DNA from: Alphaproteobacteria bacterium SO-S41
GTDB taxonomy: Bacteria > Pseudomonadota > Alphaproteobacteria > Micropepsales > Micropepsaceae
Assembly (NCBI GenBank): GCA_019670725.1
Contig: AP024629.1
Span: 1,302,001-1,366,000 of the forward strand
DNA: 64,000 nucleotides
Direction of reading: 5' to 3'
Below the pieces are notes generated by a model. The model was given only the letters and a program-made list of their open reading frames with translations, ran no database searches and was not told where the DNA came from. Position 1 is the first letter of the stretch, and every line of letters begins with the position of its first letter. Shown here in pieces: positions 12,330 through 20,331 of this stretch. Position numbers and translations under genes: made by a program.

Positions 12330-12360
12330 ACACCAATCCAGCCAGAACGGACGGAAAACA

Positions 12361-13182
12361 ATGCTTAGCGTGAACACTAACGTGGGGGCGATGATCGCCC
12401 TCCAGAACCTGTCGAAGACCAACAGCCAGATGGCCGAGACCCAGAACCGCATCAATACAGGTATGAGCGTCGCGACCGCCAAGGACAATGGCGGCCTCTA
12501 TGCGATTGCCCAGACGATGCGCGGGGATGTCGGCGCCCTGACGGCGGTCGGACAAAGTCTCAATCGCGCCAAGAGCATCGTCGATGTTGCTCTGGCGGCC
12601 GGCGAGACAATTTCCGACCTGATCGTCCAGATGAAGGAGAAGGTCGTTGCAGCCGCCGACTCGTCGATTGATACGACGAGCCGGAAGGCCTTGAACGAGG
12701 ATTTCGTGGCGCTGCGCAAGCAGTTGGCTTCGATCGTTACGAACGCTTCGTTCAACGGTACCAACCTCATCAACAACACGACAACCCGGCTGCAGTCGCT
12801 CGCGTCTGCTTCGGGCTCGCGGTTGACCACCCTGGGTGAGAACCTGTCGCTGAGCGGATCGATCGTAACGATCGCGAACACGGCGACGATCCTCACCCAA
12901 TCGGGCGCGTCGACGATGATGGCCACCGTCAACACCTCGCTCAACAACCTGAACCAGGCGCTGGCGCGACTCGGTACGGGATCGAAGCGCCTTGCCTTGC
13001 AGGAAACCTTCGTGACCAAGCTGTCGGACAGTCTGAAGGGCGGTATCGGCAATCTCGTCGATGCCGACCTGGCGGTCGAAAGCGCCCGCCTCCAGTCGCT
13101 GCAGGTCAAGCAGCAGCTGGGTCTGCAGGCGCTCAGCATCGCCAACTCGGCGCCTCAAACGGTGCTGTCGCTGTTCCAGTAG
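12361..13182 (+). CDS. Flagellin 1
   Basis: A 273-residue flagellin, exported by the flagellar type III apparatus to build the filament. The N-terminal D0/D1 region begins MLSVNTNVGAMIALQNLSKT with NRINTGMSVATAKDNGG; the C-terminal D0 helix ends QALSIANSAPQTVLSLFQ. There is almost no variable central domain, as usual for alphaproteobacterial flagellins. The ATG at 12361 follows ACGGAAAACA. Serine/threonine-rich stretches around residues 140-190 offer O-glycosylation sites. It has its own sigma-54 promoter and terminator. Confidence 0.97.
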   Translation: MLSVNTNVGAMIALQNLSKTNSQMAETQNRINTGMSVATAKDNGGLYAIAQTMRGDVGALTAVGQSLNRAKSIVDVALAAGETISDLIVQMKEKVVAAADSSIDTTSRKALNEDFVALRKQLASIVTNASFNGTNLINNTTTRLQSLASASGSRLTTLGENLSLSGSIVTIANTATILTQSGASTMMATVNTSLNNLNQALARLGTGSKRLALQETFVTKLSDSLKGGIGNLVDADLAVESARLQSLQVKQQLGLQALSIANSAPQTVLSLFQ

Positions 13183-13216
13183 GCCTTCGAATCGGGTTCG
13201 AAAAGACCCAAGAGTA

Positions 13217-13250
13217 TGAAGGGGCGGCCGCAGGGCCGCCCCTTTCTTTT
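13217..13250 (+). terminator. Terminator of flagellin 1
   Basis: AAGGGGCGGCC-GCAG-GGCCGCCCCTT is a perfect 11-bp stem followed by a T-rich TCTTTT run, a strong intrinsic terminator 35 bases after the stop codon. Confidence 0.9.
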
Positions 13251-13324
13251 CATCCGCACGCGGAAGATTTTGCCGGGTGATTTCTGCCGGGCAGGCAGAA
13301 AATTCTGCTTAAGGCCAGGTTACT

Positions 13325-13339
13325 AGGCAGGTGCTGCCT
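13325..13339. promoter_or_regulatory. Variant ftr-like palindrome before flagellin 2
   Basis: AGGCA-GGTGC-TGCCT differs from the CGGCA-N5-TGCCG element only in the outermost base pair, which changes on both arms and keeps the symmetry. It is centred about 65 bp upstream of the sigma-54 -24 box, the same spacing as at flagellin 1. Extra half-sites (TTCTGCCGG) lie just upstream around 13284-13292. Confidence 0.45.
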
Positions 13340-13395
13340 GCACAAAGTGCCGCAAAGCCGAGTCACACGGTGGTGAATGGAAATTAATGCCGGGC

Positions 13396-13410
13396 TGGCA
13401 CGGCGGGTGC
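13396..13410 (+). promoter_or_regulatory. Sigma-54 promoter of flagellin 2
   Basis: TGGCACGGCGGGTGC has a perfect -24 box and a -12 box of GTGC instead of TTGC, with the correct 12-base GG-to-GC spacing. Confidence 0.75.
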
Positions 13411-13422
13411 GTTCGGGATGGC

Positions 13423-13454
13423 AGGGGCAAAACGCCCTTCGAGCAGAACGCTCG
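13423..13454 (+). promoter_or_regulatory. Tandem hairpin leader of flagellin 2 (possible FlbT target)
   Basis: A first stem, AGGGGC-AAAAC-GCCCTT at 13423-13439 (one G-T pair), is followed at once by CGAGC-AGAAC-GCTCG at 13440-13454. The second stem is nearly identical to that of flagellin 1; the first has a different sequence but the same place and shape, which suggests the structure itself is kept. Confidence 0.55.
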
Positions 13455-13480
13455 TCACAGATCCAGAACGGAGACTACCA

Positions 13481-14305
13481 ATGGCTCTCGGTGTTAACAC
13501 CAATATGGGCGCGATGATCGCCCTGCAGAACCTCTCGAAGACCAATTCCGAACTCCAGACCGTCCAGGGCCGCATCAACACCGGCCTTTCGGTTGCTGGC
13601 GCCAAGGACAACGGCGGTCTCTACGCCATCGCCCAGGCGATGCGCGGCGACGTCGCCTCGCTCGGCGCGGTCTCGACCAGCCTCAACCGCGCGAAGAGCG
13701 TCGTGGACGTCGGCCTGGCGGCCGGTGAATCCATCTCCGACCTGCTCGTGCAGATGAAGGAAAAGGTTGTCGCCGCCCAGGACGCGTCGATCGACACGAC
13801 CTCGCGCAACGCGCTGAACGAAGACTTCGTCGCCCTGCGCAAGCAGATGGCCTCGATCGTCTCGAACGCGTCGTTCAACGGCAAGAACCTGATCAACACG
13901 GGCACCGGCTTCGCCGCCATCGCGAGCGCCAACGGTTCGTCGAAGATCTCGGTCAACGCCGAAAACCTGTCGCTGTCGGGCTCGGTCGTCACGATCACAT
14001 CGACCGCGACGATCAACACGCAGGCCAAGGCCTCGACGATGCTGGCGACGCTGAACGCCTCGCTCTCTAACACCAACCAGGCGCTCGCGCGTCTCGGCTC
14101 GGTGTCGAAGCGCCTGGACACGCAGCTGTCGTTCAACACGAAGGTCTCCGATGCGCTGACGTCCGGCATCGGCAACCTCGTCGACGCCGACCTCTCGGTC
14201 GAGTCCGCGCGCTTGCAGTCCCTCCAGGTCAAGCAGCAGCTTGGTCTCCAGGCGCTGTCGATCGCGAACTCGGCGCCGCAGACGGTCCTGAGCCTGTTCC
14301 GCTAA
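13481..14305 (+). CDS. Flagellin 2
   Basis: A 274-residue flagellin closely related to flagellin 1, beginning MALGVNTNMGAMIALQNLSK and ending QALSIANSAPQTVLSLFR. D0/D1 regions are complete and the middle is a short Ser/Thr-rich linker. I chose the ATG at 13481, which sits behind AACGGAGA and matches its paralogues. Codon use is very biased to C-ending codons, which suggests high expression and the main filament subunit; that is inference. Confidence 0.97.
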   Translation: MALGVNTNMGAMIALQNLSKTNSELQTVQGRINTGLSVAGAKDNGGLYAIAQAMRGDVASLGAVSTSLNRAKSVVDVGLAAGESISDLLVQMKEKVVAAQDASIDTTSRNALNEDFVALRKQMASIVSNASFNGKNLINTGTGFAAIASANGSSKISVNAENLSLSGSVVTITSTATINTQAKASTMLATLNASLSNTNQALARLGSVSKRLDTQLSFNTKVSDALTSGIGNLVDADLSVESARLQSLQVKQQLGLQALSIANSAPQTVLSLFR

Positions 14306-14391
14306 GCGGATAGGAGGCCCCTCCCAAACTGACTGGAAGGGGTCTCCAACCGCTTGACGGCAGGTCCAACCTCGTACGGGAGGTGGAGGAC

Positions 14392-14733
14392 ATGATCGAA
14401 GCACTGAGTGGAGTGACGGCGACGACGCCCACCGAACGCGTATTGGCGCCTGCGGCAAAACCGCAGGCAGAGGCGGTCGAGGCTCAGCCGCAAGGCATCG
14501 CGCCCAAGGCCGCGGAAGCTGTCGAAAACGCGTTGAAGGCACTCGATCCGCCGATCATGGGCCAGAACGAACGCCTGAGCATTTCCCGCGACGAGAAAAC
14601 GGGATTGTTCATCTACTCCAGCGTCGACCGCGAAACCGGCAAAGTGGTTCGCCAGTGGCCGGTCGAGAGCATGCTGCAGTTCAAGGCCTATATACGCGAG
14701 ATTTCCGGCGTGATGGTCGATCGCCAGGTCTGA
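14392..14733 (+). CDS. FlaG-like flagellar protein
   Basis: A 113-residue protein between flagellin genes. The C-terminal half (NERLSISRDEKTGLFIYSSV ... VVRQWPVESMLQFKAYIRE) matches the FlaG pattern; the N-terminal half is Ala/Pro-rich and disordered. FlaG proteins influence filament length in other bacteria, but the mechanism is unclear. The ATG at 14392 has GGGAGG eight bases upstream; a GTG at 14383 is an alternative start. It is followed by a strong terminator. Confidence 0.8.
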   Translation: MIEALSGVTATTPTERVLAPAAKPQAEAVEAQPQGIAPKAAEAVENALKALDPPIMGQNERLSISRDEKTGLFIYSSVDRETGKVVRQWPVESMLQFKAYIREISGVMVDRQV

Positions 14734-14761
14734 CCCCCACGCACAAAGTTCACGCTCAACT

Positions 14762-14795
14762 CGGCCCGCGGCGCAATCCGCGGGCCGTCTTTCTT
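14762..14795 (+). terminator. Terminator after the FlaG-like gene
   Basis: CGGCCCGCGG and CCGCGGGCCG form a perfect 10-bp stem with a CGCAAT loop, followed by TCTTTCTT. It ends the flagellin 2 / FlaG-like unit. Confidence 0.9.
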
Positions 14796-14905
14796 GCTCG
14801 GCAAAAATGACCGGGCCATGACGGGTCTGCCGACCGGCGGCGGGGTGCACTGACCAGCGCCTCAAGATTGTTCAATTATATCAAATACATAAAATGTGGC
14901 GCGGC

Positions 14906-14920
14906 TGGCCCGGGCTTTGC
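14906..14920 (+). promoter_or_regulatory. Sigma-54 promoter of flagellin 3
   Basis: TGGCCCGGGCTTTGC keeps the GG and GC pairs at 12-base spacing and a TTTGC -12 box; the -24 box has C for A at one place. Only an imperfect ftr half-site (CGGCA at 14799-14803) is seen upstream. Confidence 0.7.
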
Positions 14921-14935
14921 TCTCTTAACCATGCA

Positions 14936-14952
14936 CGCCGCGGACTGCGGCG
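14936..14952 (+). promoter_or_regulatory. Leader hairpin of flagellin 3
   Basis: CGCCGC-GGACT-GCGGCG forms a 6-bp stem with a five-base loop just inside the predicted transcript. It differs in sequence from the flagellin 1 and 2 leaders and is single rather than tandem. Confidence 0.4.
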
Positions 14953-14973
14953 GTCTGGGAGTGGAGAAGCCGT

Positions 14974-15807
14974 ATGGTTATGTCGGTCAACACCAATGTC
15001 GGCGCGATGATCGCGCTGCAGAACCTGAACGCCAGCTCGCGCGAGCTGGACATGACCCAGAACCGCGTCTCGACTGGCCTGAAGGTGATGGGGGCCAAGG
15101 ACAATGCCTCCGTCTACGCGATCGCCCAGGGCATGCGGGCCGATATCGGCGCGATGAACGCGGTGACCTCCAGCCTCAACCGGGCCAAGTCGATCACCGA
15201 CGTGGCGCTGGCCGGCGGCGAGACAATTTCGGACCTCCTCGTCCAGATGAAAGAGAAGGTCATCGCGGCCAACGACGCCTCGGTCGACACCACGGCGCGG
15301 GCCGCGCTCAACGAAGACTTCAAGGCGCTGCGCAGCCAGATCGCCTCGATCGTCGCGAATTCGAAGTTCGACGGCGCGAACCTTATCAACGGCTCGGTCA
15401 CGACCGGCATCGAAATGCTGGCCGACGCCGATGCGACCAGCGCGATCACGCTGATCCCCGAAAACCTGTCGGTCGGCGGCTCGATCCTGACGATCAAGAG
15501 CACGACCTCGCTGACGACGCTGGCCGCCGCCTCGGGTGCGCTGGCGCTGGTCAATGCCAGCCTTTCCAACGTCAACAGCGCGCTCGCGCGGATCGGCTCG
15601 ATCGGCAAGAAGGTCGACCAGCATCTCGTCTTCGTCGGCAAGCTGAGCGACTCGCTGAAGGGCGGCGTCGGCAACCTGGTCGATGCAGACATGGCGGTTG
15701 AAAGCGCCAAGCTGCAGGCCTTGCAGATCAAACAACAGCTCGGCGCCCAGGCGCTGTCGATCGCCAACTCGGCGCCGCAGATCATCCTCTCGCTGTTCCA
15801 GGGATAG
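14974..15807 (+). CDS. Flagellin 3
   Basis: A 277-residue flagellin, more diverged than the other two. It begins MVMSVNTNVGAMIALQNLNA and ends QALSIANSAPQIILSLFQG, with NRVSTGLKVMGAKDNASVYA in D0/D1. The start at 14974 could also be the ATG two codons later (14980), which would match the paralogues exactly. Its own sigma-54 promoter, different leader and terminator suggest separate dosing or a different place in the filament. Confidence 0.96.
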   Translation: MVMSVNTNVGAMIALQNLNASSRELDMTQNRVSTGLKVMGAKDNASVYAIAQGMRADIGAMNAVTSSLNRAKSITDVALAGGETISDLLVQMKEKVIAANDASVDTTARAALNEDFKALRSQIASIVANSKFDGANLINGSVTTGIEMLADADATSAITLIPENLSVGGSILTIKSTTSLTTLAAASGALALVNASLSNVNSALARIGSIGKKVDQHLVFVGKLSDSLKGGVGNLVDADMAVESAKLQALQIKQQLGAQALSIANSAPQIILSLFQG

Positions 15808-18261: not shown

Positions 18262-20331
18262 TTAACAAGCGTTTACCCTGTTTAATGCGAGGGACGTGCG
18301 GACGGTGCGCAGGCCCGAGGGCGTATCGGGCTTGCGGGTTTCGTCCATTTCGAGCGCGGAGAGCATCATGCGGCAGAAGGTCTGGCCGTGCACGGTGCGA
18401 TGCTCGACGAGGCCTATGACGGCTGATGTGGCGAGATCGGCGGTGAGCTCGATCGCGTTGATGCCGTCGTCGAGCTGCAGCAGACCCTCGGTCATGCCGA
18501 CGCCGGCGCGGCAGGAGATCAGGAACGAGACGGCGGCGCCGAGATCGACGGTCGTGCCGAAGAGCGGGAAGCGCTCCAGCGCGCGACCACCGTTGTGGGT
18601 GCGGTAGGCGAGCTGGGTCATGTCGAAGGCGTCGGGCTTCAGCGTCACATGGCCGAGGCGCAGCGAGCCCTTGCCCCAGGACGGCCAGTGGAAGGTCGTC
18701 TCGATGTCGAGGCGCGGCGCGTTGGTCGGGATGCGTAGGATCTTCTCTATGGGGCCGAGTGGGGTGTCGATGCGGGCGGTGAGGGTGATCGTGCCGTCCG
18801 GGCCGGTGGACGAGATCGGGTCGCACCATTCGAGGTCGGTGATCTTGGGCTCGCCGGGACCTTCGAAGACGCAATTGCCGGTATACCAGTCGGCCGAGAG
18901 CGCGATGTCGTCGATCTCGCCATGCGCGAGGCCGCCGATCAGCGGACGCTCGTTGGGCCGGCCCATAGACGCGACGGCGAGGCCGCGACGCTTGTCGAGG
19001 ACGAGGCGGAGGGCGGAGGTTTCGATGAGGATGTGGCGGGTGTCGGACGAGAGGGTGGGATGAACAATGTCCGTCATCCCGGCCGCAGCGGAGCGGAGAG
19101 CCGGGACCCAGGGGCCGCCACCACCGGTGTTTGCGGCCCCTGGGTCCCGGGTCTCGGACGCCTCCGGCGACCTCGCCCGGGATGACAATTCACTTACGAA
19201 CGCTTCGAGTTCGGCGCGGAACTTAGCCCAGCGCTTCTCGGTGATGTGGGTGCGGTAGTCGCTGGACCAGAGGTGGAGGAGGGTGCGCCAGTCGGCGTCG
19301 GAGGCCGTGGGCCCAAGCGCGCGTAAAGCGCGGTGGCACTGGGTGTTGGCCCAGAGGTCGTCGCGGCCCGAGGAGGACCAGCGGGTGAGGTTGTATTTGG
19401 GCTGCTTCTTCACCGGCACCGGGTTGGAGGGCGCTTCGAGAACCAGCGGGTTGTTGGCGTTCGTGTTCGTGGCGGCGGTGGCGAGGGCTTCGCTCGGCAG
19501 GACGATATTGATGCCACGCTCGGCAAGCGCGCGGAGGCCGTCGGCGACGACCTGCCATTCGCCCATGACGATCTTGTCTTCCGTCGCGAAGCGGCTGGGC
19601 CGGAAGTCGAAGCATTCGGCGTCGTTGGTGTAGAGCGCGAAGACCCGGTCGACCGGGCCGCGATGCGCGGCGATGTAATCGACATAGGTGTCGCGGTCGA
19701 TGTCGCCATGCGCGAGGCGCTGCAGCTTCTGGAAGGCAATGGTGTTCGACCAGAGCAGACCGATCTCGGACCCGTCGGCGCCGATGGCGCGCTGGGGGTG
19801 GTAGCGCCAGTGGCGGTTCCACTCCGGGTGATGTGCGGCGCAGTCGTCCCAATCCATCACCACAGCGCTGTAGCCGGCGGCGCGATAGAGCGGGACGAGA
19901 CCGCCTGACCAGGCCTGTTCGTTGATGAGGGCAATGGTGGGGCGGATGCCAAGCAACGCCTCGTAGGTGGCGAGGCCGAGGGCGAGATTTTTCTCGACTG
20001 CGGCGGCGGGCATCAGCGGACCGATCGCCTGGGCATAGCCGGAGCCGATGAATTCGATGTGTCCATTAGCGATGAGGCGGCGGAGGCGGGCGATCCAGGC
20101 GGGATCGATGTCGCGGATGATTTCGAGCGTGAGGCCCGTCGCCTCGATGCCGAGCTTGAGGCCGCCTTCGGCGAGGTCGAGCAGCGGCGTGTAGCAGCGC
20201 GCGATCACGGTGGGGCGCTGTTCCTCCTCGATCGAAGAGAACATGAGGTTCAGGTGAAAGAGGACATAGCCGGTGAGCACGCCGGTGCGGCGCGGGCGGA
20301 CGGGGCGCGAGAGCGGCTCGATCAGCGTCAT
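18262..20331 (-). CDS. GH57-like glycoside hydrolase/transferase with in-frame repeat insertion
   Basis: A 689-residue protein. The N-terminal ~330 residues follow the GH57 pattern: GHIEFIGSGYAQAIGPLMP, then ALINEQAWSGGLVPLYRAAG and a following VVMDWDD; the Glu in NEQAW is the likely nucleophile. The C-terminal ~270 residues look like a beta-sandwich (GPIEKILRIPTNAPRLDIET). Between them, residues of about 382-420 are encoded by a 114-bp palindromic genomic repeat that preserves the reading frame and adds an Arg/Gly/Pro/Ala-rich linker. The gene overlaps the ATP-grasp gene by four bases. It may process or transfer the glycan made by this locus; the substrate is unknown. Confidence 0.8.
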   Translation of the reverse strand: MTLIEPLSRPVRPRRTGVLTGYVLFHLNLMFSSIEEEQRPTVIARCYTPLLDLAEGGLKLGIEATGLTLEIIRDIDPAWIARLRRLIANGHIEFIGSGYAQAIGPLMPAAAVEKNLALGLATYEALLGIRPTIALINEQAWSGGLVPLYRAAGYSAVVMDWDDCAAHHPEWNRHWRYHPQRAIGADGSEIGLLWSNTIAFQKLQRLAHGDIDRDTYVDYIAAHRGPVDRVFALYTNDAECFDFRPSRFATEDKIVMGEWQVVADGLRALAERGINIVLPSEALATAATNTNANNPLVLEAPSNPVPVKKQPKYNLTRWSSSGRDDLWANTQCHRALRALGPTASDADWRTLLHLWSSDYRTHITEKRWAKFRAELEAFVSELSSRARSPEASETRDPGAANTGGGGPWVPALRSAAAGMTDIVHPTLSSDTRHILIETSALRLVLDKRRGLAVASMGRPNERPLIGGLAHGEIDDIALSADWYTGNCVFEGPGEPKITDLEWCDPISSTGPDGTITLTARIDTPLGPIEKILRIPTNAPRLDIETTFHWPSWGKGSLRLGHVTLKPDAFDMTQLAYRTHNGGRALERFPLFGTTVDLGAAVSFLISCRAGVGMTEGLLQLDDGINAIELTADLATSAVIGLVEHRTVHGQTFCRMMLSALEMDETRKPDTPSGLRTVRTSLALNRVNAC
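19073..19186. repeat. Palindromic interspersed element inside a coding gene
   Basis: The outer arms are GTCATCCCGG (19073-19082) and CCGGGATGAC (19177-19186). Inside, an 18-bp perfect stem (19101-19118 with 19133-19150, core GGGACCCAGGGGCC) encloses a 14-base loop. The element is 114 bp, divisible by three, and has no stop codon in the host frame. An element with the same plan (GTCATCC ends, GGACCCA inner hairpin) lies at 34571-34692. Confidence 0.85.

Follow-up and report, generated by a model that had tools for sequence, protein, structure and literature searches.

A CGTC-class REP dimer carried in frame within the linker of a GH57-family gene in an alphaproteobacterial genome

Palindromic repeats lying in frame within protein-coding genes have long been known in Rickettsia (reviewed in PMC10969869 and PMC2229807). 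According to Di Nocera et al. 2013 (PMC3733652), REPs of the GTAG and CGTC classes are also found inside genes in several free-living species, including the alphaproteobacteria that the authors name E. lithoralis and S. alaskensis. That paper also reports different REPs at about the same site of recB in two Xanthomonas species and suggests that a position in linkers or loops makes in-gene REPs neutral. It further describes the CGTC REPs as mainly alphaproteobacterial, mostly arranged as head-to-head dimers and without a dedicated transposase, and places RPE-4 and RPE-6 of Rickettsia in the CGTC superfamily. The kind of finding presented here was therefore already known from free-living alphaproteobacteria in 2013, contrary to the original prediction, which knew of no general report in such organisms. 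What our analysis adds is a census of a complete genome, a count of reading frames, the structural context of the inserts and the observation that the same protein loops are hit by different repeat families across genera.

The element studied here lies in a stretch of 64,000 nucleotides (the window) from the genome of Alphaproteobacteria bacterium SO-S41, which consists of a single contig of 4.44 Mb. The segment at window positions 19073-19186 is a true palindromic repeat of exactly 114 bp with outer ends GTCATCCCGG / CCGGGATGAC, and the longest stem without a mismatch measures 18 bp (CCGGGACCCAGGGGCCGC, element positions 29-46 paired with 61-78). Length, inner stem and ends are all as originally predicted. 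Folded as the transcript of its host gene, the element reaches -92.5 kcal/mol, with a z-score of -6.8 against dinucleotide shuffles. The parts of the element and the host gene are listed below.

19073..19186, + strand: whole element, a head-to-head (outward-tagged) dimer of two CGTC-class REP units, 114 bp; about 60 copies in the genome, with a YGTC tag at both outer ends
19073..19110, + strand: left REP unit, with tag GTC, arm ATCCCGGC...GCCGGGAC and tail CCA; short canonical form GTCATCCCGGCCTTGAGCCGGGATCCA in the 102-bp copy at genome position 1878417
19141..19186, - strand: right REP unit, inverted, with tag GTC, arm ATCCCGGG...CCCGGGAC and tail CCA
19073..19082, + strand: left outer inverted repeat, GTCATCCCGG
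19177..19186, - strand: right outer inverted repeat (CCGGGATGAC on the + strand)
19101..19118, + strand: left arm of the 18-bp perfect inner stem
19133..19150, - strand: right arm of the 18-bp perfect inner stem
18262..20331, - strand: host gene for a GH57-family protein of 689 aa with an intact ORF, residues ~382-420 derived from the element

Window positions 12347-15759 hold three similar copies with flagellin-like N-termini (SVNTNVGAMIALQNL), which are spaced about 1.1-1.5 kb apart and are 71-77% identical.

A similarity search of the genome with the element returned 40 scored copies of 81-100% identity, nearly all of full length. The pattern GTCATCCCGG-N70-100-CCGGGATGAC occurs at 42 places while the reversed control pattern occurs at none, and the element is thus not a product of chance. 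A covariance model based on 30 copies finds about 62 distinct sites in the genome at E < 0.01, and the 60 well-bounded copies form the set analysed here. Most of them are 112 or 113 bp long, with variants of 101-103, 111, 114-116 and 121-127 bp. In copies of 125-127 bp (e.g. G000:C1:2728198-2728324, where G000 is the window genome) an extra hairpin of the CCCTCGGGTTTAACCCGAGGG type is nested in the loop of one REP unit. Within the genus, good scores of the covariance model are confined to the congeners G001 and G004; G002 barely scores and G003 does not, which points to a recent expansion or turnover of the family; the expansion has taken place mainly in the lineage of the window genome. No clear target-site duplication is seen at the 60 copies (3-base matches occur at 4 of 60 copies, where shuffles give 1.1, and 5-base matches at none). 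The flanks of these copies show a weak mirrored preference beyond the ends, approximately CYMMYC on the left (Y-rich) and its complement on the right (R-rich), which could reflect either a target preference or eroded ends. A literature search for the end sequence of the element found nothing related.

Analysis of the copies groups the element with the CGTC REPs, apart from the RAYT-driven REPINs and the CIR repeats. A unit of a CGTC REP bears its CGTC (or TGTC/CCTC) tag at one end. The base preceding GTC is C in 42 and T in 16 of the 60 copies (C or T in 58/60), and the base following GAC is G in 41 and A in 19 (G or A in 60/60), giving YGTC tags on both ends. The sequence GTCATCCCGGCCTTGAGCCGGGATCCA in the 102-bp copy consists of the tag, an 8-bp stem opening with AT, a 5-base loop and a CCA tail; this stem, ATCCCGGC/GCCGGGAT, agrees by its length and AT start with the 8-9 bp stem used to define CGTC REPs. 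The stem of the standard unit keeps ATCCCGG/CCGGGA, its first A standing opposite C and not T, and the unpaired tails (GGGACCCA / GGGATCCA) fit CCA. In copies of 101-103 bp the left unit has the 5-base loop CTTGA; copies of 112-114 bp have no loop of 4-5 bases. The YGTC tags together with the canonical hairpin of the short copy identify the element as a head-to-head dimer of CGTC-class REPs with enlarged loops. The outer CGTC/TGTC tag, the AT as first stem bases, the CCA tail, the 8-bp stem and 5-base loop (CTTGA) of the short copies, and the head-to-head arrangement are all shared with the CGTC REPs of Di Nocera et al. 2013 (PMC3733652). A mostly intergenic distribution with some genic copies and the lack of a dedicated transposase (judged here from PF01797) are shared as well. 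However, most copies in the window genome have structured loops of about 18 bases or more, unlike the loops of 4-5 bases by which the four published families are defined; the same paper allows other loops in some families (PMC3733652). The species of the window genome does not appear in the parts of that survey consulted.

Like REPINs, the element is an inverted pair of REPs that forms a long hairpin and is dispersed within one genome. However, its tag is YGTC and not GTAG, and the Y1 transposase/RAYT family (PF01797, the sole transposase family searched) has no match in the window genome, its congeners or G005 (G000-G005), in a search that was positive in controls and in other relatives. CIR repeats of Caulobacter and Brucella are similarly about 110 bp long, alphaproteobacterial and strongly structured, but they contain GANTC and are absent from genes (PMC2229807), whereas GANTC is present in just 2 of 30 copies here. 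With the RPEs of Rickettsia the element shares a palindrome of the ~100-150 bp size range, insertion in frame into unrelated genes and the addition of tens of residues. In-frame copies within conserved protein genes, as in RPEs, are present here in two genes, and the Rickettsia-like behaviour suggested at the outset is supported. In contrast, genes hold almost half of the RPEs of Rickettsia conorii (PMC10969869) against 2 of 60 copies here, and the peptides encoded by the two genic copies differ, as do their frames. The tie to RPE-4 and RPE-6 is one of tag class, as given in PMC3733652.

The host protein belongs to GH57 (Pfam PF03065, E 5.8e-15), and its structural model resembles GH38 mannosidases and a GH57 4-alpha-glucanotransferase. 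Its ORF runs through the element without a stop or frameshift, in agreement with the proposal of a stop-free, frame-neutral insertion with a length divisible by three. The element corresponds to nucleotides 1146-1259 of the CDS, and the approximately 38 residues that it encodes are rich in Ala, Gly, Arg and Pro, as expected, and also in Ser. Relatives of the GH57 protein are present in 22 other genomes, and the segment is absent from all those aligned, including four congeners. In the alignment the linker sits between a conserved WSSDxRTHIT...RW helix and a RHIxIET strand. It is 25 residues longer than that of the nearest orthologue (congener G003) though the element supplies 38, which implies that about 13 ancestral linker residues have been lost or are different. 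The AlphaFold model of the protein has a mean pLDDT of 88.6 with a confident core. In this model the insert has a pLDDT of 38-44 and no secondary structure, and it follows the final helix of the catalytic part (ending at 386/393) and precedes the beta part, whose first strand is at 426. Model and alignment thus agree with the predicted position between a catalytic, helical part and a beta-rich part. The low pLDDT suggests that the insert is probably disordered, although a low value is partly expected because the aligned relatives lack those residues.

We scanned all copies with a codon-score model trained from known genes, a scan that very short coding flanks would escape. Coding, stop-free flanks on the same strand were found at only 2 of the 60 sites, the GH57 gene and a second gene whose product is a Methyltransf_28 protein (PF02636, E 2.8e-60) related to the NDUFAF7/MidA methyltransferase. 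The copy in this MidA-type gene is 111 bp long (G000:C1:1752871-1752981; L108:2872-2982) and adds 37 residues that are absent from 19 orthologues. In the structural model these residues form a loop between strands 180-189 and 232-235 with a pLDDT of 43-59, the core being again confident. Each of the two copies has a length divisible by three and no stop, and its two flanks share one frame. They are read from the same strand, though in different frames, and share no peptide.

No copy among the 60 was seen to split a gene out of frame. Multiples of three account for both genic copies and for 10 of the 58 others (Fisher one-sided p 0.037), a weak test with two genic copies, but one that fits the prediction that only frame-neutral insertions into linkers are kept. 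No genic copy was found among 12 copies in G001 and G004 and 24 loci in relatives (a few of which overlap). Long ORFs that cross or enter the copies at genome positions 3289901, 1824608 and 3271249 were considered and rejected as genic insertions, since they look like antisense frames or gene ends. One of these copies, of 112 bp (G000:C1:3289901-3290012; L112:9402-9513), is crossed by a frame of 543 codons that is coding-like in its left part and not in its right part; it is possibly a gene whose 3' end now enters the element.

The same two loops carry other repeats in relatives. The GH57 linker of the congener G001 contains in frame a different palindrome of about 180 bp with TGATCCTCCCC/GGGGAGGATCA ends (L034:2649-2828); partial relatives of it are numerous in both G001 and the window genome. 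In G029, from another genus, the GH57 linker holds an in-frame hairpin repeat (L050:2617-2678) with 63 matches in its own genome. In G005, a member of a third genus, a CTCCCC-type hairpin (L146:2060-2125) with 50 matches in that genome occupies the same MidA loop as the GTCATCCCGG copy of the window genome. The CTCCCC palindromic family is present at 26 places in the window genome, which are intergenic with no clear genic copy. Together with the two copies of the window genome, the GH57 linker accounts for three in-frame repeat segments and the MidA loop for two, five in all; these loops were chosen for examination because the first matches lay there.

The reading that we favour, at a probability of roughly 0.85, is that a selfish, non-autonomous head-to-head dimer of CGTC-class REPs, about 112-114 bp long and present at some 60 sites, landed in the GH57 linker without disturbing the frame, and that other genic insertions were mostly lost or never arose. 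Such dimers would have inserted widely in the genome as mobile DNA, one 114-bp copy entering the flexible linker. The enzyme would stay at full length because the insertion is a multiple of three and its frame contains no stop, and it would gain a segment of about 38 residues, Ala/Gly/Ser/Arg/Pro-rich and likely disordered. Nearly all other genic insertions would have been purged by selection, or would never have happened, leaving the intergenic copies and the two in-frame copies in the GH57 linker and the MidA-type loop. If made and working, the GH57 enzyme thus probably carries a floppy stretch of 38 residues read from selfish DNA.

It could be argued that the segment is a native low-complexity linker, an ordinary part of the protein family with only the appearance of a repeat, since linker length varies from 78 to 130 residues (aligned stretch) among orthologues. 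However, dozens of other copies in the genome match the DNA of the segment at 81-89% identity, and these copies together with the absence from orthologues refute this reading, to which we assign next to no probability. Pseudogenes are generally prone to insertions, and the insertion might be one of the lesions of a decaying host gene. Against such decay, 689 codons remain open, and differences from congeners are concentrated at the third codon position (0.349 against 0.159 and 0.131 at the other two, relative to G003), although this divergence covers mostly the time before the insertion; we regard decay as very improbable. The possibility that the insert was adopted for a function, as a regulatory hairpin of the mRNA or as a useful linker, and kept by positive selection would agree with its very stable hairpin and with the different palindromes in the same linker of relatives. 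However, the different frames of the two genic copies indicate that no common peptide was selected, a search for a terminator-like site in the element found none, and an Rfam search returned only GC-hairpin look-alikes (microRNA, sRNA) far under the gathering scores. Other orthologues also manage without the insert, and adoption appears unlikely to us.

Somewhat less improbable, though still a minority view, is that genes are avoided, or special sites targeted, at the insertion step, in which case the distribution requires no selection on frame. A gene-avoiding mechanism would yield a similar distribution without selection, and the weak Y-rich/R-rich flank preference is in line with it. However, neither genic copy breaks its frame, and repeats of other families likewise occupy the same loops of relatives in frame. 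The frame pattern is consistent with a loss of frame-breaking insertions, with two cases being too few to tell selection from insertion preference.

The REP dimer in the GH57 linker is a clean example from beyond Rickettsia that can be checked: the genome is complete and almost all copies can be classified, and the rule that only frame-neutral insertions in loops survive therefore becomes countable. The two loops, with different repeats in different lineages, offer natural insertion experiments on enzyme linkers. Tentatively, and with slightly less than even odds, certain protein loops may be recurrent landing sites into which unrelated palindromic families insert in frame, independently by lineage, so that in free-living alphaproteobacteria new linker segments would arise naturally and repeatedly from REP dimers. 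The finding also cautions against taking peptides of this sort in annotated proteins for domains, as they are selfish DNA.
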